Source: Amphiura filiformis
Taxonomy: Eukaryota > Echinodermata > Ophiuroidea > Amphilepidida > Amphiuridae
Direction: 5' to 3'
Length of the DNA: 64,000 nucleotides
NCBI RefSeq assembly: GCF_039555335.1
Contig: NC_092628.1
Location: forward strand, 71,949,706-72,013,705
Position numbers and translations under genes: made by a program. The notes below the pieces were generated by a model. The model was not told the DNA's origin, ran no database searches, and saw only the letters and a program-made list of their open reading frames with translations. Shown here one piece after another: positions 1 through 63,100 of the stretch (its first letter is position 1; each line of letters begins with the position of its first letter).

Positions 1-641
1 ACCGCAGCACTGCACGTAATCCACCCGTACTGCGGTACTGACACTAACATATTTTTATTTTTAGAAAATAAATGCATATATCAATAAACATCAAAGAAAT
101 CTAAATATATACCGAATAAGAGATGAAATAATGTTTTAAGTAAAGTTGAAAATGGTTTGATTAAAAAAATAAACGAATTCAAAGGTCGACCCTAATTATA
201 CTGTGTGTGTCTCTTTTTTGCGTATTTATCGGGTCTCAAAAGTATGCCTCGAATAAATCGTACTTTTTGCAAGCCAAAAGGTCCTTCTCACAAGCCGATG
301 ATATTTTGATGTAGAAAAGACACTAATTCAACTTTTAATACCAAATTGAAGTATAGGCCACCTCAAAATGTCATTTTATTTGCCCCCTTTTGATGTATAA
401 GTTTCGATGTTTTACGCGCAATATCCGTGAAACAGCATAGCATTTCCTATACAAATTGCACAGCAGACATCACGGCACGAACCGCGCGTGCGTATCGGCA
501 GCTGTGCACCCTGCCACCCAGTGTGTCTTGGTTGCTACTTATGTTGAACCGATAGCCTTATTTTTATTAAATTTTAAAATATAAACCCCAGTATTTTTTT
601 TGAGGATTTTTATATTTTTGGTTCACCATGTTATCTTTTGA
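1..641. other. AT-rich flank, no gene recognised
   Basis: No exon, repeat family or TIR matching the 3' side of the RAG1-N-like gene was seen. It probably holds promoter or 5' intronic sequence of that gene, but no promoter motif stands out. Confidence 0.4.
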
Positions 642-1117
642 TTTTCACATCGATGCCGTCTCAAAGTTGTGCGGATATGTGGCTGCCGGCTACTCAAAGC
701 TAAGGAAGCTTACAAAAGGGAGTGTGTGCCTGTCCCAGTTGACAGCTACCGTAAACAGATTGATGCGATATGGGGTGTCAACGTGTGGAAAGATACATCA
801 AATAGCCCTCACATATCTGCCATAGGTGTGCCAGGTCCCTGAGACATCAAGACTCAGGCAGCAGAGTCTTAAACAGACAGAAAGCACTCCCCCATATAAA
901 CTGGGAATCATTATCCCACAGCAGAACAGGTACATGCACTGTGTGTAGGAACTTCATAAAACAACAAAAGGGGGGGAATGCAAATTGGCCATGTCAAGAG
1001 AGAACAGATAATAATCCAACGTCAAGTTCGCCTCTGTTATTGCCATACTCATTGGAAGAGGACAATATTTTTACTAAGCATATTTCATTACAACAAGAAC
1101 TTACAATCCAACCTTCA
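642..1117 (+). pseudogene. Frameshifted N-terminal zinc-binding segment of the RAG1-N-like gene
   Basis: From 642 one frame reads through RICGC, CVPVPV, a GVNVWKD stretch and NSPH, then runs into a stop near 839. Another frame takes over at about 815 with ICHRCARSLRH, then GTCTVCRNF, and runs unbroken into the RING exon. The spacing of CxxC-type pairs (first Cys pair, a basic PVxVDSYRKQ-like block, CHRC, a Trp-containing linker, CTVC) follows the Cys-rich region N-terminal of the RAG1 RING. The two frames would join if one AT of the ATAT at 813-816 were absent, so a 2-base slippage insertion (or an assembly error) is likely. No in-frame ATG precedes 642 after the stop at 639-641; an ATG at 628 lies in a third frame. 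The start may be spliced in from upstream or be lost. Confidence 0.6.
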
Positions 1118-4100
1118 ATGGATATTATTGGCCGAAGCAGTGAAGAGGCTTCAATATTCACCTGTGTATTTTGTTTATGTATTGTGTCTCAACCAGTCGA
1201 ATCGCCATGTCATCATAATTTTTGTTCGTCATGTCTAAGTCAATATTTTCAGTATCACAAATTAATCAATGTCCCTTGTCCTATATGTTCTCAACAAATT
1301 CCATTTAATTACGTCAAATCAAGTCCAAACTATATATTGGTACCACTGCCTCATCTGACTGTTACATGTTCGTTATGTGGAGCTACATCCGAACTAATAA
1401 ATTTACAAGATCATCATTGTGCTCCAAAGCCACGTACCATTGTTTGTCCATGTCAACAATGCCGCCAAGCAACGCCATCACAAAGTAGACCTCTACAAAG
1501 AAATATAACATCACCTACACTTCAAAAAGCAACCTCAATTCTATCCAAAATGGCAGCACACCATGAAGCAGGCAAGCCACTACCCATCGAAGTTGAACGC
1601 ATGGCAGACAAATGGCTCCACAAAAAGATCCAAGCATCGAAAAGTAACACTGCCATGATAAGAACTGGTGGGAGGGTACGTCAACTCACATTTAGATTTT
1701 TTTAAACTAAAAATGTAGAAAATTATAATATTTTATACAATAAGTAAATTTCGCAAAGAACTAAGTACGGTACGGTACCAAAAATTAATATACTGTAGCA
1801 CCACAGACTAAACGTAAAACATAAAATTGCTATTTCTTTAAATATTTTTTTTAAATAATTTTTTTTTTCTATGCACCTTTCAGCCAGCAAAAATACAAAA
1901 GATAACCGACTCCAGGAAACCATCGACAGAAGTGACGAAAGCATACCAAAAGCAACGAACCAAGCAGATTGATGAATTCCGCCAAACAATTTCTCTAAAA
2001 CAGGGACAAATCCATATACTGCATGATACCAAAACCCTTGAACCTAGGCTTGATGTTGACTCCACACTAGCCCTTCAACGGCAAATGCATTCAACATGGG
2101 AGGGCATGGATGTTTTAAGAAGGTATTTGTAACATATGATTTGAATAGTACATGTAATGATGATGTACATGTAAATGTCCTGAAAAAAAATATAATGTAA
2201 CACAATGACTACAATAAGTAGAGCAATTGTTAAATGAAAATATTTAAACCATTTAATAAGAAAAGTAATAAAAATTGTTATGATATTTTATCACTAGAAA
2301 TAATTACCTGGCACCTTGCTATTAAATTTGAATCTAGAGTATGCAAAAAAAATAAAAAAAAAAAAAAAAACCAAAAAAATAATGAAGAAAACATTTCCAA
2401 CTGTATTTATGTAGTCCCTATCCCAAACCAAAACCTTGTTCACTTTCTGCAATCAGCTGATCTTTATTATGATCTTGTCAAAACAAATCATCTGGGCACA
2501 TGTGAATGCATGTGTTATGTGTACATGAGTGCTTGTCAAAACAAATACATCCTGCAGTTAGCTTAGTGCGCTTTGTAGCTCCTCCCCATGCTTGAAGTTC
2601 AGCTTGTTACCATGGTGAGAACAGAGACACACCAACCATGCACTAGTGCTAATCAAAACAAATGCATGTACTCTCATTGTATAGCTCCTCCCATAAGTCC
2701 TGCTTGCACGCCAAGTGACACGTGGGCCATAATTCAAGTATAATTTGTTGCACAGATTACTTCAATAGCTTTTGCTGGCCAGTATTGGTTTTAGTCAATG
2801 AAACTGAGCAAAAGAAAGTGACCATTTTAGATTCTGGGATTTCTGGAAATTAAAAAAACCACATTATACCGTACCAATATATCCTAAAATTTTGATTTCG
2901 CAGTAATTAAAAGCAAGATGGTCTATAGAGCCTACTATACAATTGTAATTAAAATGCTATTTTTTTCAGCATCATGATCATAATAATTATTGTAACAATA
3001 TGTAATTACTCGCTCATGAATATTTCAATGTTTATATAGGTACATGGAATCAATCGACGTTCATCTGGCATCAGAACGCCAGATGAGAAGGAGGAGAGAT
3101 GAGTTGTTAAATGATCCGATTGAAGGGAGAATGATTCCACTAGTTTTTCCGTGTGACAGTGCTGATGGTTCAGATGGCTATATAACCAAACCAACCCCCT
3201 TTGTCTATTTAAAGAACCTGCCTGAACTTGTGGTTGAGTTTTTAGAGCGTCACCTTAAGTAAGTTTGATCCCTGCAGTTGACCAAAAAAAAATTTTGAAT
3301 TTAAAATAAATCTTACATGCAACCCATAGTCAAAAATAAATAAACCATTTCATATACATATATTACTTATTCAATCTCCCCCTTACCATCCCCATTTTCT
3401 AGGTTTTTATTATTTGTTTTTATTAATTTAATTTTTTTTTTTTTCCTTTGCTGACCTTTTTGAGTTTCAAATGTCTTCATGAACTAAAATACTCATATCC
3501 CCAAATTCTCAATTAATAATTGCTACAAGGAAAAAAAAACTGTTATAACAAACAACATACAAAAACACTTGGTGGCCACCCATTGCCATGTAAGCAGCAC
3601 AAGCTGTGAAATGTCTTGTTTGCTGTAACACACACTAGATTATTTATTTTTAAGACATATTTTTAATTTATTTTTCATTCTTTGTTTTGTCTGTTTCAGA
3701 CTTGGAAATCTCACCACTCATGGAGGAATGATCCCAGATAATGAGATATGGATAAAGGTGTGTGTATGTTTTGTATTAAAATAGCTTTAAAATATTGTGT
3801 TTTGGGTAATTGGTGAGATGTGACACTGAACCCCTGTTCTACTTGAATGTGAAAACTTTGAATTTCTTTGTTTTTGTTTACATTTTTAAATGAATTCTAT
3901 CAACTAGATAAACTCAATATTTTCCATTATAGCTTGGAGGAGACAAAGGCGGTTCTTCTATGAAAATGTTCCTGCAGGTAGTCAACATACCAAAGCCCAA
4001 TTCAGCGGAAAATACGATTGTCTTTGCTGCATTCAACGGAGGCGACTCCATGACCAACATGGACATTACAATGGAGCAATTCTTGCCACAAATAGATCAA

Positions 4101-5435
4101 TTGAAGAATATGATCTGGAGGTATGGTTAATATTTTTTTTTTTTTTAAAGTTTATCAAATTACAAGCATTAAAATGAAATTGACATTAGGCGATTAAAAA
4201 AAACAAAAAAACTGTTTTATGGGCAGGCAGACTTTTGAAGGCCGGTCATGATTATTTTATATTTTTTTAATATCACAAAAAGCTTGAAAAAAAAATTAAT
4301 AAAGATAATATTTGCAAAAATAAAAAATATGTTTACGTCAAAAATCAATAGATCTTGGACAAAAAAAACCCTAATAACCAGCTGATTTTACATGATTTCA
4401 GCAAATTGAAAAAGAAATCCCAAGACACAAAAGCTGGGCTGGTCTGGATCCTAAAACAGGTTTTTTGGGTTTTTTTCTCAACTTATCTTATATTAAATAG
4501 CTATTTGCCAGAAACAGCTTTAAAATGAATTTCCTGTGTCTTATTTTCTTTTTCTTACAGAGGCTACAAATTCAAGTTGTCTTTTTTCGGTGACTGTGAG
4601 CTCATATGCAGAGTCTATGGCATTCTCTCTTGTAATGGTGTGTATTTTATAAAAAATTGTAATGAAAATAACACAAATGGTATATAGTTCTCTATTTCAA
4701 TTAATAATAGATTAAAATTATACTTTTTTTCCCCTTCATAATCATTGCAGTCACGTAAGACATTTTGTTTGTTCATCTGTTTTTAAATTTTATAGCTGTA
4801 TGTGCATGCCCGTATTGTGAGGAATCCAAGACTGGTTGGCAGACGCCATTGCAAGACCGGGAGCCAGCACCACTGCGCACCCTGGAGAGTATTAACCAGA
4901 ATTATCTGCAATACCAAGCGGATGGGTGTAGGAAGGAAAGGTCCAAAATAGTGAGCAAGAGTGTTGTGAGACCTCCTATGTTCCCAATTGAGCCCCAAGA
5001 TGTGAGTCTGTGTAAAATATCATGAATAGGCCTATATTGTTCCACAAAGCATTAACCAGAGAGGTGTGTCCAAAATGGTCAAAAATACCTTATTCTACAA
5101 AATCAGGGTGTCCACTTCCTTTTCACTCCATTATTAAAATCAGAATTTTAGAGTGTCCAAATTGAAAACAGGGCATCCAAATGACACCTGGACACCTTTC
5201 TGGCTATAAATGCCTTGTTGTTCTCTACAACTACGTAATACTATGGTACTTTGTAAATTCCCTTCCAGTCGCTGTAGAAAAAAAATATGGTTTTCTTCTT
5301 CCTTTTCTTTGTTGACAGATCAATGTGCCGTCCTTACACATTGGGCTTGGTGTATTTAAGAAAATGTATGACATGCTGGAAGTTGACGCTAACAACATCG
5401 ACTCCAAGATTTATAAGCATCGTGTTGGGGATATA

Positions 5436-5466
<31 letters not shown>

Positions 5467-7481
5467 TGATAGCGACTAAACAACACAGCAATTTTGACCA
5501 AGCCATCATGAGAAGAATCAGTGAAAAGGATCGTGTCAAAGAGACCATAGAAAAGAAGAAAGAACAAGTGGAGGACATGTTTGACGATATCCCCTTAGCT
5601 TCCATCAAGAAGAAAAGACAGAAGAAAGATGTTGCAAACATGTTGGGAGCCATTGGGACAGTAAGGCAAGAGATTAATGAACTGGTACGTTTGCTTTTTT
5701 GATGGTATTCTATAGGCCTAAAAAATGTTTGATTGGCGTAACAAGAAAAATTACTTGTAAAGCTGCAAATTGCATTTGATAAAGGCTTTTTAAATTTTTT
5801 TACTTTTTTTAATTAAATACAATTTTTTTTCTTTGCCAATTTTTTTTTAAAAGGCCTAAATTTAGGGTCAGTTGGGTTGTAAACACCAATCAAACAATTT
5901 TTTAGGCCGCTTTGTTATTTTCTGCTTTGCTATATTTTTTAATTACATTTTCTCTTTCAGAAATTTACAAAATGTTACATATTTTTGCCCGTTACAATTA
6001 CAGGAAGAACAACTGGAGAACAATGAATTTCGGTTTAGAAGTGGGCCTATTGTAGCTGCACTTGACAGGACCCTGGATAAACATGGGATTTCTAGACAGG
6101 CATACCATGGCAAAGCTTTCAATGGTAACCACGTCAAGAAAGGTTGCAAGGTAACAGATTTTTTGTTGCACAAATTTTTTTTTTCAGATTTGGTAATACT
6201 AATGATTATTTTTTTTTGTCCAACCCACAAAAAGGATATATTTTTTTTAATTTTTTTTTTAACATAAATGTCATCAGAATAAACCAAAACAACACATAAA
6301 AACATGCATGCCTACTTACCACTGCTTGCTTGTTGGGGATATATCACCAGCCATAGAGCCATAATTTCCTGGGTATTTGTACATGTATGGCCTATACTTT
6401 ACCCGGATACTTCAGCACATGACACAGATTTCTGCTACATATTTCCAAGGGTATAATTCCAATATGGTATGATTCATATCTACATCTGCCACAAGATGAT
6501 AATTGAACATTGCACTTGTACATCTTTTATTCCTTAAATCCAGAATGACGTTTTCATGGATCTGGTGGAAACTCCTTCAGAAATGCTACAGCAACTAGGC
6601 ACTGACAACATGCCACTAGCTGTTACCAAAGATGCACAAAACATCAAAACAAGATACAGTGAACTATTTTCTAAGTATGCTGAAGTTCACAACAGGATAA
6701 ACCATGGAAGACATATGACAGAAGAGGAGATTGATGAGGCTGGTGTGTAAATAAACTGATTTTTATTATATTTCAATGATTACCATCAGCTGATGGGTGT
6801 GTGGGTGGGGGTGTGTGTTGGGGTTGTATGTGCAATAAGCATGCATGATATAGTGTTATATGTGATGCCTTGAAATAACACAACTTAAAACAGGTTGTCC
6901 TGTATAAATAGTATAAATAGTCAAATAACTGTTTTACATGTAGTTTACTATGTTCTTCAATATTCTTGGCAAATCACATTGTGTTATTTTTGGTTTTATG
7001 GTTTGTTTGTTTGTCTGTATGTTTGTTTGTTTGTTATGCTTGTTTTCAGCCTATATCCGTGTGGGTCTTTATTGATTTCCTTTTTTACTTTAATTCTTTT
7101 GAAGTCTGAAGGTGAAGTTGAAATAAGTAATGTACATTGTATGATATGAATTGTCTTGCAGAAGTGGCTGTTCGTGAGTTCATGGAATCTTATCGAAGAA
7201 TTCTGCCAAACTGTCAAATCTCCCTGAAGCTGCATTTTCTAGAAGATCATGCGATTCCACAAATGAGACGCTTGAAGGCCGGTCTTGGAAAAATGAATGA
7301 GCAGGGTGGCGAAAATGTTCACTCAAAGCAGAACAAATCTGAACAGTCCAGCGCAAACCTCAAAAAGCAGCCTCTCCGCCATCTGATGACTGTGATGACA
7401 AACTCGCTGACAGCAGCTCTCCCTGATATCCAATCTAAAATGAGATACAGAAAGAAGAGAAAAATTAATGTTGAAGAATGA
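1118..7481 (+). CDS. RING / RAG1-N-terminus-like protein with transposase-like C-terminal domain (11 exons)
   Basis: Exons by GT-AG sites and phase: 1118-1675, 1884-2122, 3040-3258, 3700-3757, 3933-4120, 4561-4637, 4796-5001, 5319-5684, 6004-6150, 6544-6742, 7162-7481. They sum to 2577 nt, 858 aa plus TGA, with no internal stop. Exon 1 has a C3HC4 RING (CVFC, CHHNFCSSC, CPIC) followed by a Cys2-His2/Cys finger (CSLC..DHHC), the same order as the RING and ZFA of RAG1. Later exons carry LGGDKGG, FFGDCEL, a CACPYC knuckle, LHIGLGVFKK, and near the C-terminus FLEDH and NEQGGE. The spaced D, D, E are a candidate DDE triad (codons near 3942, 4592, 7242), which is inference. The chosen ATG is the first in the RING frame; similarity continues upstream (see 642-1117), so the true start is probably further 5'. 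Best recalled relatives are N-RAG-TP-like proteins of invertebrates. It may be a host gene derived from a transposon or an old element. RING and splice structure are sure; enzymatic function is not. Confidence 0.8.
5436..5465 (+). repeat. GAT trinucleotide repeat in coding exon 8 (poly-Asp)
   Basis: A run of GAT codons encodes ten consecutive Asp residues inside the eighth exon of the RAG1-N-like gene. The frame stays open on both sides, followed by a Lys/Glu-rich, probably coiled or disordered insert, so the tract is tolerated as an acidic linker. Confidence 0.9.
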
Positions 7482-7580
7482 GTGTGAAAGACTGTGTAAT
7501 AGGATTGCAAATTGTATCAATGATGTGACCATGTCACAAGTCAAGTCACAAGGTGGAGTGACTAGAGTATTGTATAGGGA

Positions 7581-7768
7581 AGCACCGTTAGATTCTCGGG
7601 GGGGGTGGGAGTTTGGGTCTAGCACTTGGGCATTTTGTTTACCACCGCCGAAGATTTTTTTTTCACCGCCTTTGGGCAACTACATTTTTTTTCAACCTTT
7701 TAAATGTATACCTTTATACAGAGTTGGGTGGAGTAAAACTCCCCCCCCCCCCCTAAATCGAATGGTGC
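7581..7768. mobile_element. MITE-like element with G-run termini
   Basis: The left end AGCACCGTTAGATT plus a G run is an imperfect inverted match to the C run plus AATCGAATGGTGCA on the right. It lies about 100 bp downstream of the RAG1-N-like stop codon and has no coding capacity. Confidence 0.45.
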
Positions 7769-7865
7769 ACCCCTAAGCCAAGTCATTTACAAATTATCTC
7801 AAGATTGCTGATGAAGTCCATGACTTTCCATGATGATAAAATCTAGAGTCAACCTTTAAATTTAA

Positions 7866-8091
7866 TACCGTAAAACCCCGTCTACAAGCATATAGAGTGC
7901 TTCTGATGAAAACTACATTAATCCAGGCGCCATTATGGAATATGAGCAAATAAATTACGGATCCAAGCATATACAAACAAGTATTATTTTAAGACCAATC
8001 TATTGTATTGGTATATTTACGCTGGCTTCAAATTAATTTAGCTTAAATAATAAAAAACACTATGTATGCTTATAGACGGGATTTTACGGTA
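7866..8091. mobile_element. MITE with ~30-bp terminal inverted repeats, TA-flanked
   Basis: Starts TACCGTAAAACCCCGTCT and ends with the near-perfect complement AGACGGGATTTTACGGTA. The outermost TA could be the target duplication, which would fit a Tc1/mariner-type non-autonomous element. No coding capacity. Confidence 0.75.
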
Positions 8092-8784
8092 TATAACTTA
8101 AAACAGTATTATGTGTTACACTACATGAAAAGCATTTGGTATGGCACATGGAGTTAGTCTGAATATGAGATGGAGTTAGTCTGAATATGAGGTGCACTGG
8201 TGCACACATAAGCCCTTTCGCAGACTTGGAATTTGCAAAATTCACCTGTCGATACAACTAAGTGTGGTGCAAAATAGTAAATGATAGGGCCTACCTATCA
8301 TACCACATTTGTAAGTGACTTTATGTGTTAATTGTCTGGGAGGGCATTTCAAATTGCTCACAACTTTCAAAATGCAGCACTTGCACTCCAAGGTAAATAA
8401 TTAATTTGAAGGCAGGGTGCACACATGGTCTGATGTTTGTTTGTTTTTTTTTTTTTTTGGGGGGGAGGTGACCGTGCTGACCTGTCTAAATAAACTATAA
8501 AACACCTGTCGACCACCATGATGTGCCACCCTCCCCCTCCAAAAAAATGGAGAAAATGATTTTGAACCAGTCAACCCAAATAAATTTGGTTAAAGACCAC
8601 CCTATTATCTAGCCCATAATGCTCATTATTGGTTTCACACATCGCTATTCCAAAATTAACTGAACATTTTTAGCCGATTCATCGTTAGTCTCAATATGAA
8701 ACCTTGTACGGGTTCAATAAGGTGCTTGTCCAAATATGAATTTACTGCATAGTGATTAGTGAAATCGTTTGACTTAAATATCTT

Positions 8785-8982
8785 CAGAGGCGGCACCAGG
8801 ATTTTTTTTGAGGGGCATTAGGGGGGCAAAGTGAATTTCAGGGGGGCAAAATCAATGAATTTTGCGCAAAATTATTACCACGAAAAGTGGACATCTTCAT
8901 AATTTTAGGTTTTTTCTGGGGCAACGGGGGAGAGTTCTGACGGGGGGCATTTTCCCCATCCCTCCAGTCAGCGCCGCCACTG
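8785..8982. mobile_element. hAT-type MITE with 8-bp target site duplication
   Basis: The ends CAGAGGCGGC and GCGCCGCCACTG are inverted repeats, and the element is flanked on both sides by AATATCTT (8777-8784 and 8983-8990), an exact 8-bp duplication as made by hAT transposases. The inside is G-run-rich and non-coding. Confidence 0.85.
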
Positions 8983-9467
8983 AATATCTTTCAGATTAAG
9001 ATTATTTTTATGATAGCGAAATGAAATTAAAAATTTGAATAAACACTCCAAAGTGTCACTTTAAAAGATTTACCTTGTCAAACTAACCTTGCTACAGTTT
9101 GTCCACATAGAATTACAAACCAAATCTGTGGCATCGTGGGTCGATGCTTTGCGTCACACATGAACGCGACCCAACAGTGTGGTGCGCTCGGCAAGTACAA
9201 ATTGCGCACCAGTTGGCCCGCCAAAGAAGCATTGCACTGAAATAAATATTCTCATACCTCCAGTTTCCGAGGTCTATTTATTTTGTACTTCTATGTGGAC
9301 AGACTGTATGTATTAAAACAAGGATAACAATTAAATAGGCCTGTTTTAGGGCCTAACCTAAGCATTTTGGTTCAATTTTCACTGATGTACATTTTTTTAT
9401 TGTTTTGCTTGGTTGCATTTCCCCAGGCTGACTTGTTGGTATTTTTTTAAATATGGATGTACATGTA

Positions 9468-9730
9468 CATATGATGCGATCAAGCAAAATCAGTTGGAAC
9501 TTGATTCAATTTTCAGTTTTGTACAGGATAGTAAAAAACATTTACAAAGCTGCATTTTCTAGAAAATTGCATTGAAATTGACCAACCAGTTCAAACGATA
9601 TTTTTTTATGAGCAATTAAAGAGTTTCAAAAACAAAGAGGAAACAAAATGAATATTTCCTTTGTTTGGCTATATCTCAAAATCTATATTTCCAAGTTCCG
9701 ACTGATTTTTCTTGATCGCATCACATATAT
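9468..9730. mobile_element. Palindromic MITE, GATCAAG-TIR family, copy 1
   Basis: The left end GATGCGATCAAGCAAAATCA is mirrored by TGATTTTTCTTGATCGCATC on the right. The same termini appear at 25681-25938, and one end at about 32289, so this is a dispersed family. No coding capacity. Confidence 0.7.
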
Positions 9731-11220
9731 GAAATTCAAAATATTTATTTTAAAAATATTTATTGTTATTGAATTGAATAATATATTAAATAAAAATTAT
9801 AAATTTATTGCAATACACAGAGTAGCTGTCTTAGAATTCTTTTTCCAATGTGATTAAAAATGTTGTATACAATTTGTAATCATATTTTTTATTTTAGTAA
9901 AATTCCCTTTGAACCTTATTTTGAAAATAGAAGTTGGCAAAAATGTATTGCACTATAAAACAATGCTGTACATGTATGCACAATGCACATACAGTGAACA
10001 TGTCATGTGTACACCAACCAAAGCAAACAATTCAGGTGGCCAATGTAGCAAAACTTTCAGCATATCAACGTAGACAGATTTGGAATGGCCAAAATAAAGT
10101 TATGTACAGCTTTCTTGTTTTTTCACTGAACCTTGATTTTTTTTTTATCAGTGTAAAATACACTTTCTGAAAATAGGAAAGACCTCTTTTTTTATCTTGC
10201 TCAATTGACAACAATCCCCTATAGATATAATCTGTTACTAACAATTTCAAAAACCCAATAAACACACGATATAATTCACCTAAACGTGCTTGTAAAAATC
10301 AAGTGTCGAGGATGGCGAATGAACGTGATTATTGGGTTATTGCAAACAACACGCTATTTTTGTGTGGCCGACATCGCGACATCCAGACGGTACATGCATG
10401 GGGAAAATACCTTCGGTTCATGAACCGCTTTCAGTCATGAAACATTGCATTAGCATGGAAAATTAAGACAGTATTTAAAACAATATTTTCTTACCTTTTT
10501 TCCCGATTAATTTCCACAGTATTTTCCTGTAGTAAAGCTCCCAGAATCCTAAAAGGTCAATTTCAGTTCTGCGGCATGATCAAATTCACTGGCTATGCGT
10601 GTGTGTGACTTGCGCTGGCTGATACTGATATGACCCCGGCCATCTCCACGGTTGTTGTTGTGCATGTGTGGCGTTTTGAAGCGATAAGAAGCTCCACTTT
10701 CTTGTCTCTTTTCGGCCATAAATTCGAGTGGCCTACAAATGAATTTTGCTTGAGCTTAACAATTCAAGTGTCTTGAACGTTTTTCTGGTACTGGATGTCC
10801 TGGTAACTTTTATAAATAAAGATATTGGTGTTGAAAGACGACACGTCGGTAACTGAGTCCATGTGCATGGAACGGGTCACGGCGGATCGAAATTAAAAGT
10901 TCATTGAATCGCACTTTTCAAAAGCTTATTTTCACACGTTTCGAAGTTCCAAAATTCGTCCAAACTTCGCGTAGGGGTCATACATTGTCTTATACACTGT
11001 AGAATATCCTTCTTTTCAATAATTGGTCGCTAGTTTTACTGTAAACGAGCGTAAAGAGCAGACGTTTTTGGAGCAGGTCAAAATCAGCATCTGCATGGTT
11101 CACCGCGTGGGTCAATGCACTCGCCGAACTCACGGTACAGCGTGCGGACACAGTATTTACCTGGCGCGTCTTCGCCGTAGGGGGGCGCTATCCATATTAA
11201 TTAATGGATCTGCCGTGTAG

Positions 11221-12109
11221 GGTGAGATGAGAGTGATTGCTGACAACACATGACCACACAGCATTACAATGGTCTTTAATTGAACTTAGGATATCCATAT
11301 GAGTGCATTGAGGAGTCATTGGTAATCTAGGGTGAGATGAGAGTGATTGCTGACAACACATGACCACACAGCATTACAATGGTCTTTAATTGAACTTAGG
11401 ATATCCATATGAGTGCATTGAGGAGTCATTGGTAATCTAGGGTGAGATGAGAGTGATTGCTGACAACACATGACCACACAGCATTACAATGGTCTTTAAT
11501 TGAACTTAGGATATCCATATGAGTGCATTGAGGAGTCAATGGTAATCTAGGGTGAGATGAGAGTGATTGCTGACAACACATGACCACACAGCATTACAAT
11601 GGTCTTTAATTGAACTTAGGATATCCATATGAGTGCATTGAGGAGTCATTGGCAATCTAGGGTGAGATGAGAGTGATTGCTGACAACACATGACCACACA
11701 GCATTACAATGGTCTTTAATTGAACTTGAGATATCCATATGAGTGCATTGAGGAGTCATTGGCAATCTAGGGTGAGATGAGAGTGATCCCTGACAACACA
11801 TGACCACACAGCATTACAATGGTCTTTAATTGAACTTGAGATATCCATATGAGTGCATTGAGGAGTCATTGGCAATCTAGGGTGAGATGAGAGTGATTGC
11901 TGACAACACATGACCACACAGCATTACAATGGTCTTTAATTGAACTTGAGATATCCATATGAGTGCATTGAGGAGTCAATAGCAATCTAGGGTGAGATGA
12001 GAGTGATTGCTGACAACACATGACCACACAGCATTACAATGGTCTTTAATTGAACTTGAGATATCCATATGAGTGCATTGAGGAGTCAATAGCAATCTAG
12101 GGTGAGATG
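11221..12109. repeat. 110-bp satellite array, left block
   Basis: Eight full units of exactly 110 bp begin at 11221, 11331, 11441, 11551, 11661, 11771, 11881 and 11991. Each starts GGTGAGATGAGAGTGATTGC. A ninth starts at 12101 and is cut by an inserted element after 9 bases. Early units carry CTTAGGATATCC; later units carry CTTGAGATATCC and change GGTAATC to AGCAATC, a directional drift along the array. Confidence 0.97.
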
Positions 12110-14397
12110 CAGTGTTCGATTTTCATCTATTTTTTTGTGTAGCAAAAATTGCTACTCACTTTCAGATTTGAGTAGCAATTCCAAAATTTTGAGTAGCAGT
12201 TTGTTTTCACCATATTTTATCGATTTTTTTGTATTTCTTGTCTTCTCACAAATTACTCAATCCCGGTACTCAATGCTTAAAAAAATAGACAAAAATCAAG
12301 CACTGCATGGATACCATCTTTAGGCCCCTATTGGAAAAGAGAAAGACCTCACCTTCTGGGAAAATCCACCTTATTCTAGTTAATCATTGCCCTTCCCATC
12401 CATGGATCTGATGTTTTGAAATTGCAACAATAATTTACACATACCACACCCATGCATGGAAAACTGTTACATTTGTTAAGCTTAATATTACTGGGTAATT
12501 TTGTCATTTGGAAGGAAATTTACTAGATGATGTGAAACTTTACCATATAATGCGCCGGTTAACATAGTAGAGAGGCAACGTCCCAGGCAACGTTATATGC
12601 AATTGCAATTGCAGACCGAATGTGGTTCAAAATTCGGCACCTAAACTTCCTAAGCTGATTATCATGTGCCCTTTCTAAACGCAAATTTTCCTAAAAAGTC
12701 CTACATTTTTGAGTAGAGGAAACTCACTTATTTACTAGCTGAAGCATTAAAATAATGTGAGGAATCTATGAAATCCTAAAAATCTTGTGTAGTTTTGGAA
12801 GATTGTCACCAAGGACACACGATATTTCCGTCTCACCACTGAACTATACACCCATATAAACATTGCTACTTCTATGATGTCATAAATGAATATGCATGTT
12901 TTTTGTTATCTGGTAATACATGGAAGCATGGAGCTATTAAATAGATGGAGAAGAAATAGATTACGTAACGCATTGAAACCTTGTGCCGATTTGAAATCTG
13001 ACAAGCTATTCATCGAAAGGTACCTTTTGTTTTGGGACAAAGGGCTTCCGCCATTAAATCGGTAAGCTGACCCGACAGTGTATTAACGCTTTACCTAGCA
13101 GGCTACTGTCAATAAGTGATCAAACGAAAGCGCGTGAAAGCGGCGTCTGGAACGAAAAAGTACCTTTTGTTATAATAACACACAAGGATGTGATTGAGTA
13201 GCCGTAAGCACAAAAAGCACACATTAGCCGCTGAGTACAGTTCGTGATCACCCCACTGACTTCAGGTGCTTCATTTAAATAAATTGAATGCGCTTGCTGA
13301 ATGATTACACATCAAGCATTCAAGGCTGCCATTTATGTCTATAGTACTGTATAATGGTAATAGCTATACGTATACATGTTACAAATAATAAGTATACCGG
13401 TATAGGCCTATATAAAAGTTGTTTCACAAATTGACATTTTATTTTATTTTAAGAAGGAGAATGTCATAAACAGTGGCGTACTGAAGGGGGGGGCAGCTCT
13501 TCTGTGAGAGGTCTTGGGAAGGGATGAGGGAGGAAGAGGTGAAAGAGGGATATGAAGAACGAGAGGGGGTTTGGAGGAAGAGAGAAAGAGGAAGAAATGA
13601 AGAGAAATAAATAAATAGAAGTAAATAAATAGAAAGGTAAGGTAAGAAAAATGATAGGAATGAGAGGGGACAAAATGTAAGAGGGGATGGAGAAGGGAAG
13701 GGAGATAAGAAGAGGGAGTGATACTTCAAGGAAAGAATCAGTACAGAGAAAAGAAAAAGGAATGACAAAATGTAGGCATTATAATAATTATTATAGAAAC
13801 TAAACACAGCCCCCACATAGGCCTAACGCTAACAGCACTATAGGCAGCCATTCGATGATGTCAATGCCTTTATGCGTTACGTATTTAAAACGCCCAGTCA
13901 GATGTATTTTACACCTGCCAAGCACAAGTCACCCAATTTTGAAAATTGGACGTTGAATGTACACTCTCATGAATATTGATTGGCAACATTTTCCAATATG
14001 TCAGCGCTCAAATCGGACACAATAGAACAATAGACCATTCAGTGCGTTGCATGGAAGTATGTAACACAACCATGACACAACATGTCATTTGCATAAAATT
14101 TGCATATAAGGGAGGATACTGTATTTCGTTTAATGGCGTAAACATCACGATTTGGGGACTTTTGGGTCATATTTTTGTGGATGATTTTCTTGGAAATGGA
14201 ATTTATGGAGACATTTTTGACTTCGACAAATGGTAACTTGCAAATGATGGTATATCAGCGTGGTTCACGGTCGCAAGTAGGCATTTTCCCCGATTTTTTT
14301 GGATCGCATTTTTTTGCTACTGGTCTGTGTAGTTGAGTAGCAGTTTGTAGAAAATGACTCGCATTTTGCGATGCGAATCCAGGTAAATCGAACACTG
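12110..14397. mobile_element. hAT-type non-autonomous element (2,288 bp) inserted in the satellite
   Basis: It begins CAGTGTTCGATTT and ends AAATCGAACACTG, a perfect 13-bp TIR. The satellite bases GTGAGATG are present on both sides (12102-12109 and 14398-14405), an exact 8-bp target duplication. Both subterminal regions carry several GAGTAGCA / TGCTACT motifs, typical of transposase-binding subterminal repeats. No transposase ORF is visible, so it is non-autonomous. It contains a purine-rich tract at about 13480-13750. Confidence 0.92.
13480..13750. repeat. Purine-rich (G/A) tract
   Basis: The plus strand is almost wholly A and G over roughly 270 bases inside the hAT-type element. The long Ser/Leu/Phe-rich minus-strand ORF across it is only the complement of this tract. 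Confidence 0.8.
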
Positions 14398-14676
14398 GTG
14401 AGATGAGAGTGATTGCTGACAACACATGACCACACAGCATTACAATGGTCTTTAATTGAACTTGAGATATCCATATGAGTGCATTGAGGAGTCAATAGCA
14501 ATCTAGGGTGAGATGAGAGTGATTGCTGACAACACATGACCACACAGCATTACAATGGTCTTTAATTGAACTTGAGATATCCATATGAGTGCATTGAGGA
14601 GTCAATAGCAATCTAGGGTGAGATGAGAGTGATTGCTGACAACACATGACCACACAGCATTACAATGGTCTTTAAT
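14398..14676. repeat. 110-bp satellite array, right block
   Basis: The satellite resumes after the hAT-type element with units starting at about 14398, 14507 and 14617, the last ending within the unit at CTTTAAT. These units carry the late-array variants (CTTGAGATATCC, AGCAATC), as do the last units before the element. Confidence 0.96.
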
Positions 14677-14971
14677 CAAAATAGTCAATTCTTGATCATC
14701 GTAGCTATCAAGCACACTTTAATAACACATTCTCAACCTACCATTGACCTAGCCTAGTAGCAGCTGTATTCAAAGACTGTGATTGGTCAGTTCTCAAACA
14801 CTCTGTCACATTTAGTCCAAGTCTACAGCTTATAGTCATTACATTGCACACGCTATGCAAATATCTGTGCGTACCGAGTAGGCTCATATGATCGATAGTA
14901 TAATGGCATTCTTAAACTGCTCATTGTATGGTGCTCTAAAATAGCCGTTTTTGTATATATTTCAATTTCAG

Positions 14972-17900
14972 GTGATCTTCATGGCAACTTTCGCGACTTA
15001 GTGTGTTTTGAGAAGGCTCTATGGAGGATGGGTCCATTACTCACACCATGTTCATTTTTGTTTCTAGGTGATTATGTAGACAGAGGAGAATATGGTGTAG
15101 AGGTAAGTAAAAACTTTCAAGGAAATGTGTGAAGAGGTGGCTATGGTTTTATAGTAAATGCTGTAAACCTTTGACGAGATCATACTTTTGTGATGCTGAA
15201 AAGGTGGAAAAACCCAAGTATGACATGTAAATCAGGGACACGACAACAGCAGATTGCATCAGCAGCTAATAAGAGACAAGTGTGTTTAATAAAGTGTATA
15301 TGCAATGTACGCTGTAAAGTAAGATCTCGACAAAGGTTTTCAACAATTTACTGTCAATGCATTCATTATGTTAATAAATCTATTTAGTACCTTTTAATCA
15401 TTCCTATAATTATGTCAGTTCTAGTAATCCAAATTTATAAAAAAGGAAAAACATGAAATGATGCGAGGCAATACATCAAAGTTAATTTAATCAGCAGCAA
15501 CTAGGAGTTGATTATGAGGCTTTAGTTACTATACCTTTTAATAAAAATGTGTACCCACTGTTCATGTAATACTTATGCGGTATGTTCAAATATGTAGCTG
15601 AGAAACTGATTTCGGTTAATAACCAAAGCATGATTATACTACACATTAATTCATAATGTACAGGCTTGCACCTGTTACATGTAATAAGAGAAAAATGTTA
15701 ATGTATGTGTTTGTAATGTGATAAAAAAAAACAGAAAGAAAGAAATTAAATGAAATATTATAAATGAAAGACGCAAAAATGTACAGTGATTTAATTGAAA
15801 TTAATAGGTACTCAACAATCTAATGAATCATGTCTTTTTTCAGGTTGTAGCCTATTTATTGTCACAGAAGTTGTTAGCTCCAGAGAAATTCTTCCTGATT
15901 CGTGGTAATCATGAGTTACGCTCCGTCCAGAAGATGTTCCACTTTGAAGCGTGAGTGTCTTATATTTCATGTTTATTTTTGCTGTTCTTTTATTCTAGGA
16001 ATTTGCATAGCTGTTGCAAAAACATTTTTATTTACAAGGTGTGAAGTTCAGTTGGAAATATAACCTCTAGTATTCAGCTTTAAGTTTGCTCATTTATGCA
16101 ATAAAAATCACACTATATTTATATGTTAATTTTTCGGTGTGCAGCTCTATTTAGAGTACTCTTCAGAAGGTTCCCAAACCATGATGTAAAGTATAGCAAA
16201 ATGTGTGCTAGACAATGAAATTATGATCCATTTCACTCATCTTTTAATATGAAGCTCAGTAAGTCTGAAAATCAATTGTAACTTACGACACATCATAAAA
16301 TCCATTTCACTAACATGACTTATGATCGGTACCCTTCATAAGTAATGGGGATTTACTACAGGGACCTTTGTAAAGTTAAGCCTAGTAAAAGGGTATTCAT
16401 ACCTTGAGAATGGTTACTTGAGATACGAAGGGTTACAGGTTAAGTGAAATGGACCCTTTGTTTTTGTCTAGCATGCAATCTTGTTAATTTACATTAATAA
16501 CCATATGAATAGTACCCTGCATAGTGCAACACATGGAAAACTCAACCTGAATAGTATTACAGAGGTATGCCGTGACATGACTAATATTGTCAGAAAGTAG
16601 TGCCATTGTGTGGTTAGGCCATATATAATTTGGTGTAATATTTCTTATATGATGTTGAAATGTTAGTGTAACGATGATGTTGTATCTTTTTTTTCCAGTG
16701 AATGCTTGAAGAAGTTTGGCAAGACAATAGGTCATCAGATTTGGGAGGCTGTGAACAGTTGCTTTGATGTGATGCCATTAGCTGCAGTAGTAGATAACAA
16801 GGTAGGTAAATGTAATGTAGTGCAATGCAATGTAATGCAATACAATGCAATGTAATGTAATGTAATGCAGTGCAATACAATGTAATGTATGAGGTGTGTG
16901 TCTGTTTGTGCATGCATATTGCATAATCACCCCAAGCGAAAGAAAAAAAAGGCACTGATTTCTAGTGCACTGCGCACAGGCACAATGCCTAGATGTTGAT
17001 CCACAAGCCTCAGCACACTTTACAGGTTGTCGCTGATTACTATGGCCCCACATCAGTCCATAAACAATTAAACAATAACTCAGGGACTTAGCAGCTTAGG
17101 AGTGCACACCACAGAGAACTAAAGTATGTTTTCAAAACAAGCAACTGTTGACCCATCCAACCACATGCTGTCCATGTTCGTTTTTCTAGAAATGCCATAA
17201 AAATGTATCATCCATGATTTGCACCTGAAAAGTATGTGTGTGGGTTTATAAACACCTGCAAACGATAACTAATACATAAGAAATATCTGTGTAAAGTGAA
17301 CACACATTTATGTTTACTGGACAGTGCTACTATAGATTGGAAACAGCATAGACGTGCATTATAAACTGCTATGGCAGTTGGCAGTACAGGGTCAGTCAGC
17401 ACTTGAATAGTGAAAACTTCAAGAGTCCATGGTATGGTATATGAAATTTTAAATGTTTGTGTCCGCAGTTGGATAGTGAAACTGCAAGTGGTGTATCACA
17501 GTCCACAGTTGTTGGTGTTTGTACATGGGGTGTGGGTGTGCCGTCAAACACAGACGTGTTTATGAAAATTGACATTTCAACCATGATCGTTACATCAACC
17601 AGGGACCTTCCCTGTTAGGTCAAGATGTGCAATTGACTGCAAACATCCTAAAATGCATTTGATAGTGAGTTCTCTATTGTTGATATTAAAATCAGTCCCC
17701 ACTTGATAGGTTAAAATCCAACAAAATTGTGTATAATTTGTAAAACAGGATCAACATCCCTGATTGGGTGCAGAAAATCAGAAAAAATGTGACTCTGTTT
17801 TCCCGGCCCTGTACAGTGTACCGGTATGCCTATAAACGCATGTAGGGGTGTGTGTGCATATGTCTTAATGTGTTGTAAACAATAATAGTAATAATAAATA

Positions 17901-31876: not shown

Positions 31877-33765
31877 TCATTGCTTAACAGATTTGTTCAT
31901 ATAATCTTTCAAGTCCTCTATGCTCATGTCTACTTTTTCCAGTGGTACGTGTGCATGGTTTGGATTTCCATAAGCATCATACTTCTCATTGAATGTTAAA
32001 TCCAACAATTCATCTTTGTAATTCTGCAATGCATAAAAGTAACATTCTTGGATGGCGCTGTTAGACTTTCCACTGGTGTCAGCTTTGTTGACAACTGTTT
32101 CCATGGTAACTGTTATGCATATTCTTTGGTAAGTATTTTCTAATTCATCTAAGAAATGTAGCATCTCTTCATCAACTCTGTAAACCTCACCCAAAATATG
32201 CTGTTTTAGAAAGAAAAATACCAGAAATAATTGCTGCATGAAAGAACAAACAATACTACTGGGGTGAAAAATGTCCTATGAAAGTGGTAATGTGACACGA
32301 TCAAGGGAAATGAGTCGGATGTCGCTAATATTGATTTTCAGATATTGCCAAAGAAAGTGTTCAAATTCTTTTGTTTTATATTGTTTTCAGCGATTGATAA
32401 ATTGACGTACCTTCGCAACGAAAAGTCATATCAACATGGGGTTTTCAGTTTCCTGAAACATATGTAAACTCATTTTGGACCAGGGTCGACATGTAACCCA
32501 TTCCCAAAATTTTGGACAAATAAGGCCTACCATTAATTAATTTTGGTTAATAGAAGTTGAATATCGGTCTTAAAATGCTCTTTTAAAACAATTGCGCGCG
32601 GAGCGCGCGAAATTTTGGACAAATAAGGCCTACCACTAACTAATATCTGTCTTAAAATGTTCTTTTAATTGATTTTGTGCTGAAATGCGTGCAAAGCGCC
32701 AAAATTTTGACTTTTATTGCTTGGAGGCGCAGAATCGATGCAGAATTGGTCAATTTGGCGCCCCCTAAGGGTAGCGCCCGGGGCATGTTGCCCCCCCTAG
32801 TTACGCCACTGATCTCGGGTTTGGTCATCTCCAATAAAGGTTATAAAAGGTTATACCTATAACGGGCTATTCCATTTAAAATCCACACTACCTGTGTGGA
32901 AGAATTTGGAAATATCGTCCACAGGGGGAGTATGAATTTTAAATAGGATTAGCACATTAACCAACTCTATTTGAAACTCACCCTCCCTCGATCTGTGGAA
33001 GATTCAGGTTGAATCTTTTCCACAGGAGTGTATAATTGCAGGCCCCATGATACGCTATCCTGCTTTGTTACCAAAGTCGTCATACAGACTCATGAATGCC
33101 TACTAGACAGCATCATACAATTACATAAACTTACCAAAAAAGAAGAGAAGAACATGCAAAGAAAGAACCAATCTAAATATTCATGACATTTTAATAAAAA
33201 GACATTTCACAGTTCACACAAGAAATTGATAAAATGGGGTAGGGATAGCTGGGATCATTAAATAATGCTGTGGTACTCAAATTACACATTTGGACAGGGG
33301 TGTGCGCTGAACTCAGAAACTCCTACCCATGGATTTTTTGGGGGGTGCTGATTTTGAAAAATTGGACTTTTTCCAGGGGGGGCAATTTTGTGAAAAGTGT
33401 ACTTTCTTCCCAAAATTTGGACCTTTTTTGACCAAAAAAAGCGTAAAACCCAGATTTGTTTTGCTCGTTACGCTCTCAAATTCTTAAATTTTGAGACTTT
33501 TTATACACATTTGCAAATTTGGGGAGGTGATGTGGCCGCACCCTCCCTGCGTACGGGCCAGATTATAATAATTACTTACATGTCCAACTCCAGGTTTATC
33601 AAGCACAAAAGGAATATTGAACTTGGTAGCTACCACCAAAGGCCATTTCTCGACGGTCTTAGCTTTCCCAACAAATGTGGCATGACCTTTTTCTGACTTG
33701 GTCATCAGCTCATGAAAGGGCTGGCCATTCTGAAGGGTGCCATACGTAAATACCAGATGGCTCAT
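31877..33765 (-). CDS. Gamma-glutamylaminecyclotransferase-like protein, copy 1 (two exons)
   Basis: Exon 1 is 33765-33580 (ATG at 33765) and exon 2 is 32200-31877, joined in phase 0 over a GTAAGT...CAG intron, giving 169 residues. The YGTLQNGQP loop at residues 8-16 is the family's substrate-binding YGxxxxG motif; KWPLV, NIPFVLDKPG and GEVYRVDEEML follow as in GGACT/AIG2-like proteins. The acidic residue in FLDELE corresponds to the catalytic Glu. Known family members release 5-oxoproline from gamma-glutamylamine crosslink fragments in the cytosol; this activity is inferred here. Against copy 2 it lacks three residues immediately after the catalytic Glu and five in a later loop, so activity may differ. 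The intron holds MITE fragments absent from copy 2. The ORF extends upstream of exon 2 into intron and should not be read as coding there. Confidence 0.9.
32289..32360. mobile_element. Single end of a GATCAAG-family MITE
   Basis: GACACGATCAAGGGAAATGA and the following TTGATTTTCAGATATTGCCA match the left end of the element at 25681. No opposite end was seen, so it is a truncated copy within the copy 1 intron. Confidence 0.5.
32864..33035. mobile_element. GGGCTATTCC-family MITE, truncated copy
   Basis: The left end GGGCTATTCCATTTAAAATC and the inner GGAAATATCGTCCACAGGGG are as in the element at 22398, but the right terminal repeat is missing. In the copy 1 intron. Confidence 0.78.
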
Positions 33766-35415: not shown

Positions 35416-35901
35416 AGAGCGATAACCGCACCATAGCTGAACCATGTGGCTTCGACAGTATATTGTGGTAGGCCTATACCACTGTCACCCGGAGTCTGTA
35501 ATGGCCCTTAATGACCTTAAATGAATTTTAAAATATTTTCAACATGACCCTTTAATGACCCTAAATAAATTGTAAAATGTTTTAAACATGTTTAGAATGT
35601 CATAAGGATCATTGCATTTAAATTTAAGCTCAATCGGAGCATTTTTGGTTAAAATGACCTTTTTTGACCCCTGTGACCCCTGGATGACCTCTGACATTTG
35701 GAAATATTTTTATTATATTCTTTATGTTTTCCTCTTTCACATGACACCACTCATGGCGTCATACCTTCGTGGCATTTAGAGATATGTCCATTTCAGACCA
35801 AATGGTTAGTCAGTTAGCTAGTAAGCTAGTAAGCTAGTAACTTAGTAAGCTAGTAACATTCACTCATATAGGCTAATACCATTTCATGGTTCAGCAAAAA
35901 T
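35416..35901 (+). repeat. Dispersed repeat with internal minisatellite, copy 1
   Basis: Begins AGAGCGATAACCGCACCATA, contains TGACCTTAAATGAATTTTAA units, and ends with a TAAGCTAG simple repeat and CATGGTTCAGCAAAAA. The same start and end bound 62342-63100, which holds more internal units. Non-coding, transposition mechanism unknown. Confidence 0.85.
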
Positions 35902-36038: not shown

Positions 36039-37757
36039 TCATTGCTTCAATACAGATTTTATCAAATAATCTTTTTGTTCATCCAGGGTCATGTCTATTT
36101 TTGCCAGTGGTGTGTGTTCATGGTTTGGATTTCCATAAGCATCATACTTTTCATAGAATGTTAAATCCAACAATTCATCTTTGAAATTCTGCACCACATA
36201 AAAATAACATTCTTGGATGGTGCTGTTGTCCTTTGTATCCATAGACTTTCCACTAGTGTCAGCTTTGTTGACAACTGTTTCCATGGTGACTGGTATGCGT
36301 ATTCTTTGATAAAATGTTGGATGACCCTCAAATTCATCCAAGATATGTAGCATCTCTTCATCAACTCTGTAAACCTCACCCAAAATATGCTGTTTTTGAA
36401 AGAAAAATAACCACAGAATTAATTGTTGCAAGAAAGAACAAACACAAGACACACTACTAGTACTAGGATGCATGTCCTATAAAGTGACAATTTTTGGGTG
36501 ACTAATTATTGCAAACATTTACTTGTTTTTAATTCATTGATTTAGCATGTCTACATGCACATGTAAACGTCCCACCCAGGGGCGCGTCACATTTTGTCAC
36601 CAAAGTCAGAACTGCTGAGCAGTGCTTTAGTAATTGCAAGTCTCAAGTCTTATTTGCAAATTGAGTTCGGGCCCTTTTTTGCTTAAATTAGCAATGATAG
36701 AAATAGTGTAAAATAATGCACCAAATGGCTTCAATTGGACCTCCATTTTGCAAAATTTTCCAACTTCTGAGGGGGCGACATTCCCTGCATATGGATAAAT
36801 AAGTGTCCGTTCTAGCTTCTGATTTGGACACCACTTTATGTTTAACACAATAATAGTGAAAACGTGTCCACAAATGGCTTCAATTGCACCTTCATTTCAC
36901 ACATTTTCGGCTTTTTCAAACTAAAATTTTACACAATAATAGTGCCAAAATGGTCCACCAAATGGCTTCAATTGGGTCTTTCATTTTCCAAATGTTTAAA
37001 AAAACTTATGAGGGGGCACATCACCCTCAGACACCACCTGCTTAGTGTGATGCGATGGCCACTTCCCGGCCATTTCTTCCATTCTCTTTTCATTTGAGCC
37101 TCCGGTATTTTACCATCAGGGATCCACCCTTGCATGGTGATCTGTCCCCATCCACCCTACCTCCCACTTCATGGCAGCACATACAGGGACTTAGCTAGGA
37201 TTTTGATGTTGCCCGTCGTTTTGAACAACAGTGCCTGTCGAAAATGGTCAAAATCGCCCAAAACGACATAAAAAAGTGTAAAATGGTCCAAAATTGCCAC
37301 TTTTTTGCCCGTCTCAAATGACAAAAAAGACGGGCCGCTAGCTAAGTCCCTGAGCGCATACCTGCCAAGAATGTGCAATATTAATGCTTAAAATGTGCCA
37401 AAATTTGGTTCATGTTTAGACTGAAATGTACAGGCTAAAGGAAGAAGCATAACAGGTTTTATTCCCTTATCTGTTTTTTTACACCACTGGAACATGCGAG
37501 GAATATTATTTTCCAAACTTGTTTTTAGTATAAATTTCCAATATTCAAGGACAAATATAATTACTTACATGTCCAACTCCAGGTTTATCAAGCACAAAAG
37601 GAACATTGAACTTAGTAGCTATCACCAAAGGCCATTTCTCTACAGTCTTGGCTTCCCCAACAAATGTGGCATGACCTTTTTCTGACTTGGTTATGTAGTG
37701 CTCATGATAGGGCTGGCCATTCTGAAGTGTGCCATATGCAAAAACCAGGTGGCTCAT
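36039..37757 (-). CDS. Gamma-glutamylaminecyclotransferase-like protein, copy 2 (two exons)
   Basis: Exon 1 is 37757-37569 and exon 2 is 36389-36039, phase 0 with GTAAGT...CAG borders, giving 179 residues. The start is placed at MSHLVFAYGT, matching copy 1; an in-frame ATG eight codons upstream (37781) exists but is not shared. YGTLQNGQP, KWPLV, NVPFVLDKPG, GEVYRVDEEML and the catalytic region ILDEFEGHPTFYQR are all present, the last agreeing with the usual D-x-F/L-E signature better than copy 1. The predicted role is intramolecular cyclisation of gamma-glutamylamines to 5-oxoproline plus free amine. Gene structure, upstream sequence and 3' end resemble copy 1, so the pair arose by tandem duplication of roughly 2.3 kb. 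Family call firm, substrate inferred. Confidence 0.92.
36660..37080. repeat. Degenerate ~120-bp repeat in the copy 2 intron
   Basis: AATGGCTTCAATTG followed by ACCT/GTCTTTCATTTT and a GAGGGGGC block recurs at about 36725, 36870 and 36960, and once more near 34215. Not coding. Confidence 0.6.
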
Positions 37758-62341: not shown

Positions 62342-63100
62342 AGAGCGATAACCGCACCATAGCTGAACCATGTGGCTTCGGCAGTATATTATGGTAGGCC
62401 TATACCACTGTCATCATTGCATTTAAATTTCAGCTCAATTGAAGCATTTTGAAAACTTGACATTTGACCCCTTTATTGCCCCTTAATGACCTTAAATGAA
62501 TTTAAAAATATTTTAAACATGTTTAGAATGTCATAAGGATCATTGCGTTTAAATTTCAGCTCAATCGGACCATTTTGGAAAACTTGACCTTTGACCCCTT
62601 AATGACCTTAAATGAATTTTAAAATATTTTTTAAATGTTTACAATGTCATAAGGATCATTGCATTTAAATTTCAGCTCAATTGGAGCATTTTGACAACCT
62701 TGACCTTTGACCCCTTTATGACCCCTTAATGGCCTTAAATAAATTTTTAAATGTTTTAAACATGTTTAGAATGTCATAAGGATCATTGCATTTAAATTTA
62801 AGCTCAATCGGAGCATTTTCAGTTAAAATGACCTTTTTGACCCCTGTGACCCCTGGATGACCTCCGGACGTTTGGAAATATTTTTATTATATTCTTTATG
62901 TTTTCCTCTTTCATATGACACCACTCATGGGGTCATACCTTCGTGGCATTTAGAGATATGTCCATTTCAGACCAAATGGTTAGTCAGTAAGCTAGTAACT
63001 TAGTAAGTAAGCTAGTAAGTAAGCTAGTAAGTAAGCTAGTAAGTAAGCTAGTAACATTCACTCTTATAGGCTGATACCATTTCATGGTTCAGCAAAAATA
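62342..63100 (+). repeat. Dispersed repeat with internal minisatellite, copy 2
   Basis: Starts AGAGCGATAACCGCACCATA and ends CATGGTTCAGCAAAAA like copy 1 at 35416, but has about four internal units of roughly 90-130 bp (TGACCTTAAATGAATTT..., CATAAGGATCATTGC) and a longer TAAGTAAGCTAG tract at 62985-63055. Confidence 0.88.

Follow-up and report, generated by a model that had tools for sequence, protein, structure and literature searches.

A probable Chapaev-type transposase gene with the overall domain order of RAG1 in the brittle star Amphiura filiformis

Introduction

How did RAG1 come by its N-terminal half, and with what catalytic domain did that half once travel? Passages of PMC8355894 treat the N-terminal half as a fusion with a separate N-RAG-TP element, and passages of PMC4411706 as descent from one transposon that already carried it. 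The question is raised again by a gene near the start of a 64,000-nucleotide stretch of the brittle star Amphiura filiformis (contig NC_092628.1, positions 71,949,706 to 72,013,705; the whole stretch is called the window below). An earlier note, made from the letters alone, described this gene as a RAG1-type N-terminus joined to a non-RAG1 transposase-like domain. We find that it is very probably the transposase of a Chapaev-type DNA transposon (Pfam DUF1280) with the overall domain order of RAG1, which would run from a multi-zinc Chapa domain through a RING, a C2HC finger and a GGRP linker to a predicted RAG1/Transib-type core.

Results

Gene structure and domain order

The gene has eleven exons, and all ten introns are GT-AG. 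Its spliced frame is free of internal stops from 806 to 7481 (962 amino acids, aa), and the Cys pairs, RING, finger and LGGDKGG, FFGDCEL and FLEDH motifs described in the earlier note are all present in this single multi-exon gene. It is not a product of chance, because an NCBI Amphiura filiformis protein of 714 aa, labelled 'uncharacterized', is identical to its product from codon 1550 onward, and because its domain order recurs in two proteins of the starfish Asterias amurensis, P0004 (1025 aa) and P0005 (989 aa): CxxC, HPxxLCxxC, H with CxxC, and KGG or QGG, then a RING, then a CxxC...HxxC finger. The NCBI model begins at 1550, 3' of the RING, and leaves out the zinc domains of exon 1. The features are as follows.

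about 628..1675, plus strand: exon 1, with the Chapa zinc domain (frames 604, 642 and 806), the RING, the C2HC finger and the start of the linker
642..839, plus strand: Chapa domain, first half, with the first Cys pair and the part after it; profile E = 4.3e-7; no Pfam match when taken alone
806..976, plus strand: Chapa domain, second half, reading CHRC, H, CTVC and KGG; profile E = 1.4e-9, and alignment; no Pfam RAG1 match when taken alone
1163..1294 (about 1290), plus strand: C3HC4 RING; Pfam zf-C3HC4 E = 4e-4, 20.6 bits, slightly below the cut-off of 21; PDB matches to TRIM, TRAF and RAG1 RINGs
1367..1420, plus strand: CxxC...HxxC finger (CSLC...DHHC), 3' of the RING, at the corresponding position in Asterias P0004 and P0005
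1667..1892, plus strand: GGRPAK motif, spanning the junction of exons 1 and 2, with intron 1676-1883 inside
1884..2122, plus strand: exon 2
3040..3258, plus strand: exon 3
3700..3757, plus strand: exon 4
3933..4120, plus strand: exon 5, with LGGDKGG, whose Asp (codon 3942) is presumed to be the first catalytic one, and another conserved Asp at codon 4044
4561..4637, plus strand: exon 6, with FFGDCEL (presumed second catalytic Asp, codon 4592)
4796..5001, plus strand: exon 7, with the CPYC zinc pair (codons 4807 and 4816)
5319..5684, plus strand: exon 8, with LHIGLG, then the bulk of a long helical stretch
6004..6150, plus strand: exon 9, in which the helical stretch ends, QAYHGKAFNGNHV
6544..6742, plus strand: exon 10
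7162..7481, plus strand: exon 11, with the HFLEDH zinc pair (codons 7233 and 7248), NEQGGE (presumed catalytic Glu, codon 7299 or 7311) and the stop

An additional small exon at about 4401-4459 was rejected: although the segment is open, inspection by eye showed that it would break the reading frame into exon 6, and it is missing from the NCBI protein. Within exon 8, a GAT repeat of 12 copies (window 5436-5470) encodes ten consecutive Asp residues; an acidic run is also present at the matching position of Asterias P0005.

A RAG1-type N-terminus

The RING on its own matched TRIM, TRAF and RAG1 RINGs alike in the PDB, and we therefore removed it from the queries. (Its Pfam family, zf-C3HC4, scores 25.7 bits in P0004, above the cut-off, and 18.1 bits in P0005, below it.) With the RING-free zinc domain of P0004, P0005 and the window from 806 as query, RAG1 came first, the 137-residue RAG1 chain 21wb_A at E = 4.8e-5 and full-length mouse RAG1 at E = 0.012; nothing else scored better than 0.31. 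A RING-free profile that added ENA and sponge relatives and held no window row gave RAG1 at 1.2e-10 and 1.4e-8, with the next match at 0.17. Using a five-row N-terminus with the RING retained, we found full-length mouse RAG1 first at 5.3e-13, colinear over 258 columns and above many RING proteins. The Pfam RAG1 importin-binding family, which covers this region, recognised the sponge relative at 25.5 bits, above its cut-off of 23.3.

RAG1 is thus the sole significant PDB match of the RING-free zinc domain, which bears out the description of this N-terminus as RAG1-type; what the RING-free searches returned was not confined to generic RINGs. As read from sequence, the link to RAG1 goes via the relatives and not via the window sequence alone. 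It is scarcely credible that a generic TRIM/TRAF-type RING gene and an unrelated open reading frame were aligned by chance: the RING alone does score best against TRIM30 and others, but the zinc domain singles out RAG1 once the RING is gone, and the starfish proteins carry the same fusion.

Beyond the finger, the GRPA of GGRPAK is invariant in all three alignment rows, at a location that is roughly that of the RAG1 nonamer-binding region, where RAG1 carries GGRPR. Since the P0004 model has a mean predicted local distance difference test score of at most 65 in every ten-residue block before about residue 430, we make no claim from it on the Chapa domain, the RING fold or the nonamer-binding region.

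A predicted RAG1/Transib-type core

The C-terminal part of the product belongs to DUF1280 (PF06918; E = 1.7e-17, 64.3 bits, cut-off 25), a family found in all eight relatives scanned. Other authors have grouped Chapaev, with which passages of PMC3985635 equate DUF1280, with RAG1 and Transib.

Conserved residues were counted in a 12-row alignment in P0001 numbering, three rows of which (P0010, P0011 and P0012) are fragments. D252 is present in every row, D218 (GGD) in 11 of 12, the remaining row being too short to cover it, and D288 (GD) in 10 of 12, with P0009 diverging. C307xxC310 occurs in nine of the 12 rows (P0007 has no CxxC columns), H633xxxxH638 in seven (P0002 diverges), and E655 or E659 in N/GEQGGE also in seven. 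Six of the 12 rows hold D288, C307xxC310, H633xxxxH638 and E655/E659 all together; of the other six, P0010, P0011 and P0012 are incomplete, P0007 lacks CxxC, and P0002 and P0009 diverge or end early. The order D, D, CxxC, HxxxxH, E is conserved in the aligned cores, with E655 or E659 as the candidate, presumably catalytic, Glu. A long helical stretch, at about P0001 376-500, lies between the two zinc pairs. We pair D218 and D288 with RAG1 D600 and D708 by order and by RAG1 numbering, not by coordinates.

In structural comparisons of the predicted models, RAG1 was the best match, at 13-16% core identity in the structural alignments; HzTransib and BbRAGL were matched by structure only. The RAG1 rows of these alignments mostly start at residue 459 or later, with three mouse rows at 422, 424 and 454. 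By predicted fold and motif order, the C-terminal part is an RNase H-type DDE transposase, as had been proposed, and the models place it as a RAG1/Transib-type core, in which a zinc-binding helical insert would interrupt the DDE RNase H domain. By analogy with RAG1 and Transib, the Chapa-RING part could serve in dimerisation, ubiquitin transfer or partner binding, while the core would pair the two ends of the element, its two aspartates and one glutamate holding metal ions, and the element would be excised and then inserted elsewhere. Activity, end recognition and RING function are all suggested by this analogy.

The Chapa domain is split over three frames

The Chapa zinc domain runs over frames 604, 642 and 806 in turn and so contains two frame changes. 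Its Cys pairs are RICGC at 672 (frame 642), CHRC at 818 and CTVC at 935, and frame 604 adds one further Cys just ahead of RICGC. A profile of four relatives, without a window row, was run against 2967 six-frame segments and found frame 642-839 (E = 4.3e-7) and frame 806-1702 (E = 1.4e-9); the next segment scored 1.3. Frame 604 alone was not significant in that search (E = 8.7), and we assign it to the Chapa domain only for its likeness to the Asterias start (by eye, MLSFDFHIDAVSKLC against MTMSFKFHQEGLSKLC in Asterias). This puts the likely start codon at 628, in frame 604; the start at 642 given earlier is only the beginning of a stop-to-stop frame. With P0004 and P0005 as queries, tblastn matched 806-1675 at E = 6e-44 and 8e-44.

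Because the Chapa exon switches frame twice, the copy as sequenced would not yield a full-length protein. Real decay and assembly error are equally possible causes. Passages of PMC11310086 describe the A. filiformis genome as a nanopore assembly with 0.00068 errors per base at the polished flye stage; if the window stems from that assembly, 3 kb of coding sequence could well contain about two errors of any kind.

Evidence against, and alternative readings

Several results weigh against a Chapaev-type element that resembles RAG1 from end to end. A profile of the whole N-terminus, RING included, built from echinoderm rows only (P0004, P0005 and the window from 806), reached RAG1 solely via the RING, at E = 5.6e-8 and behind TRIM30, and full-length mouse RAG1 was absent from its 35 matches at 1e-4; the strong N-terminal score depends on the sponge and ENA rows. 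In the Pfam RAG1 importin-binding family the starfish proteins stay under the cut-off (20.9 and 20.7 bits, E = 0.00031 and 0.00034), closely followed by the insect-type zinc domain zf-AD (19.7 and 15.2 bits against a cut-off of 28, E = 0.001 and 0.026), and the window's two Chapa pieces had no RAG1 match in Pfam. For the core, a sequence profile placed RAG1 at E = 1.1, behind two keratin matches (0.6); a second search found nothing at E = 0.01, and a search to E = 10 gave three matches, none of them RAG1, the best being cellobiohydrolases at E = 0.29. We take the keratin and cellobiohydrolase matches as noise. The Chapaev assignment itself goes via Pfam DUF1280 and published descriptions, not via a direct comparison with Repbase Chapaev. 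The product forms a cluster of one sequence, so recent copies in A. filiformis are not demonstrated, and neither terminal inverted repeats nor a target-site duplication were found in the flanks of the gene within the window, of which the 5' one offers only 627 bases ahead of the start codon.

With profiles at E = 1.1 or empty, we rejected sequence as evidence for a link between the core and RAG1, which is visible in structure only. The earlier description of the C-terminal part as non-RAG1 therefore holds at the level of sequence and fails at that of predicted structure; because that structure is a RAG1/Transib core and the family, DUF1280, is Chapaev, we do not retain it. The two halves are unequally similar to RAG1, since profiles find the zinc domain and not the core, and it was this inequality that fitted the earlier proposal of a donor lineage, in which the RAG1 N-terminus travelled with an unrelated catalytic domain. 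The predicted fold speaks against 'unrelated', and we consider a donor lineage of this kind very improbable.

Still less probable is a true RAG1-like (RAGL) gene, orthologous to vertebrate RAG1 and accompanied by a RAG2-like partner. It would share the overall domain order and would have RAG1 as best structural match, as seen here. Passages of PMC4411706, however, give an identity above 30% between RAG1 and the TransibSU/RAGL core of echinoderms, across about 600 aa. A core of that kind should be detectable by profiles, whereas the brittle-star core is not and belongs to DUF1280 instead. Inspection by eye of 18 open frames between 7500 and 20000, each 75 aa or longer, showed neither a Kelch nor a RAG2-like sequence, though this was not a systematic search.

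The main rival to a transposon copy is a Chapaev transposase domesticated as a host gene, whose C-terminal 714 aa kept working while the Chapa and RING part went untranslated. Exons 2-11 are intact with GT-AG introns, as are the catalytic motifs, the NCBI model begins past the RING, and the one-sequence cluster and missing terminal repeats would suit such a gene. Directly ahead of the annotated start, however, exon 1 holds an open RING and C2HC finger. The 12 relatives found include one further A. filiformis protein, only 51% identical, and none from another brittle star, which leaves the gene without a conserved ortholog among them. Two starfish clusters (90% identity) have 20 and 5 members, as for mobile elements, although their rows state one contig and isoforms may inflate these sizes. 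We regard domestication as unlikely and prefer the transposase of a Chapaev-type element.

The search for ends paired a left arm (1-1100) with a right arm (7300-16000), simple sequence excluded, and gave 12 inverted pairs. The best, 13 bp and perfect (503-515 and 8411-8423), was rejected, as 38 of 200 first-order Markov simulations of both flanks reached at least 13; on its diagonal, TGCA at 509/8417 is the sole flank match of 3-5 bp, and it falls within the arms and not at their outer ends. A general repeat finder gave no convincing flank-to-flank pair among the 25 longest of 216 inverted pairs, which were mostly A/T-rich. No second copy was found in the window, where tblastn matches of the 12 relatives (E up to 0.01) all lay within 806-7478.

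Other features of the window

Neighbouring exon copies of a gamma-glutamylcyclotransferase (GGACT, AIG2-like) lie on the minus strand at 31880-32275 and 36042-36476 (Pfam E = 1.4e-7 and 3.9e-10); they are 85% identical over 183 bases of DNA and probably reflect a local gene duplication. A 110-bp tandem repeat of 8.1 copies occupies 11218-12109, and about 2.3 kb beyond it an array of 2.5 copies with nearly the same unit lies at 14397-14676; the two may form the interior of a mobile element that bears repeats. An open frame at 14899-15132 on the plus strand resembles, by eye, a PPP-type serine/threonine phosphatase exon. The repeat blocks at 35544-35856 and 62475-63030 lie 27 kb apart and are related, with parts 77-94% identical and a AGTAAGCT-like tandem stretch; they are probably copies of one mobile element.

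Discussion

Bearing on the origin of RAG1

The brittle-star locus and its starfish relatives supply proteins that carry both halves, with a catalytic half that the models predict to be RAG1-type, and a comparison between a tree of each half could now put the question of origin to the test. The gene is a useful extra relative for this purpose, as a further member of a described group. We put forward tentatively, as a possibility on the doubtful side, that echinoderm Chapaevs have the RAG1 architecture end to end and that their zinc domain has stayed closer to RAG1 in profile searches than their core. If true, this would fit either an ancient common transposon with zinc domain, RING, finger and core, so that RAG1 was never a fusion, or Chapaev-like and RAGL-like elements that exchanged their N-termini later. 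The contrast between zinc domain and core is a lead, and only that, because the ligands of a cysteine-rich domain may by themselves give it a good score; it leaves room for a fusion or exchange.

Comparison with known systems

The Chapa-RING-transposase arrangement is already published for Chapaev: passages of PMC4411706 (2015), which cite the Repbase reports by Kapitonov and Jurka, describe two subgroups with a RING after Chapa. By description, the brittle-star gene resembles these subgroups in its DUF1280 core, its Chapa zinc domain, the RING behind it and the order of catalytic and zinc motifs, and differs in its brittle-star host, its ten introns, a Chapa exon with two frame changes and terminal repeats that were not found. 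Our literature search did not include the Repbase reports, and we do not claim echinoderm Chapaevs as previously undescribed; a literature search for RAGL with NTR found nothing.

Vertebrate RAG1 shares with the gene the overall domain order, the predicted core fold and a RAG1-like zinc domain. By contrast, the brittle-star core is only 13-16% identical to that of RAG1 and unseen by profiles, a long helical stretch separates its zinc pairs, and the nonamer-binding domain is not clearly matched. HzTransib and BbRAGL (ProtoRAG) match the brittle-star protein by structure only, and canonical Transib, in passages of PMC4411706, has no identifiable domain beyond the core. The N-RAG-TP of Aplysia, which we set beside the brittle-star protein by description alone, is in passages of PMC8355894 made wholly of sequence like the RAG1 N-terminus. 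The gene is very probably an ophiuroid instance of the published Chapa-RING-transposase arrangement, to which we add a structural comparison, a test of the zinc domain with the RING removed, and the contrast that profiles see this domain but miss the core.

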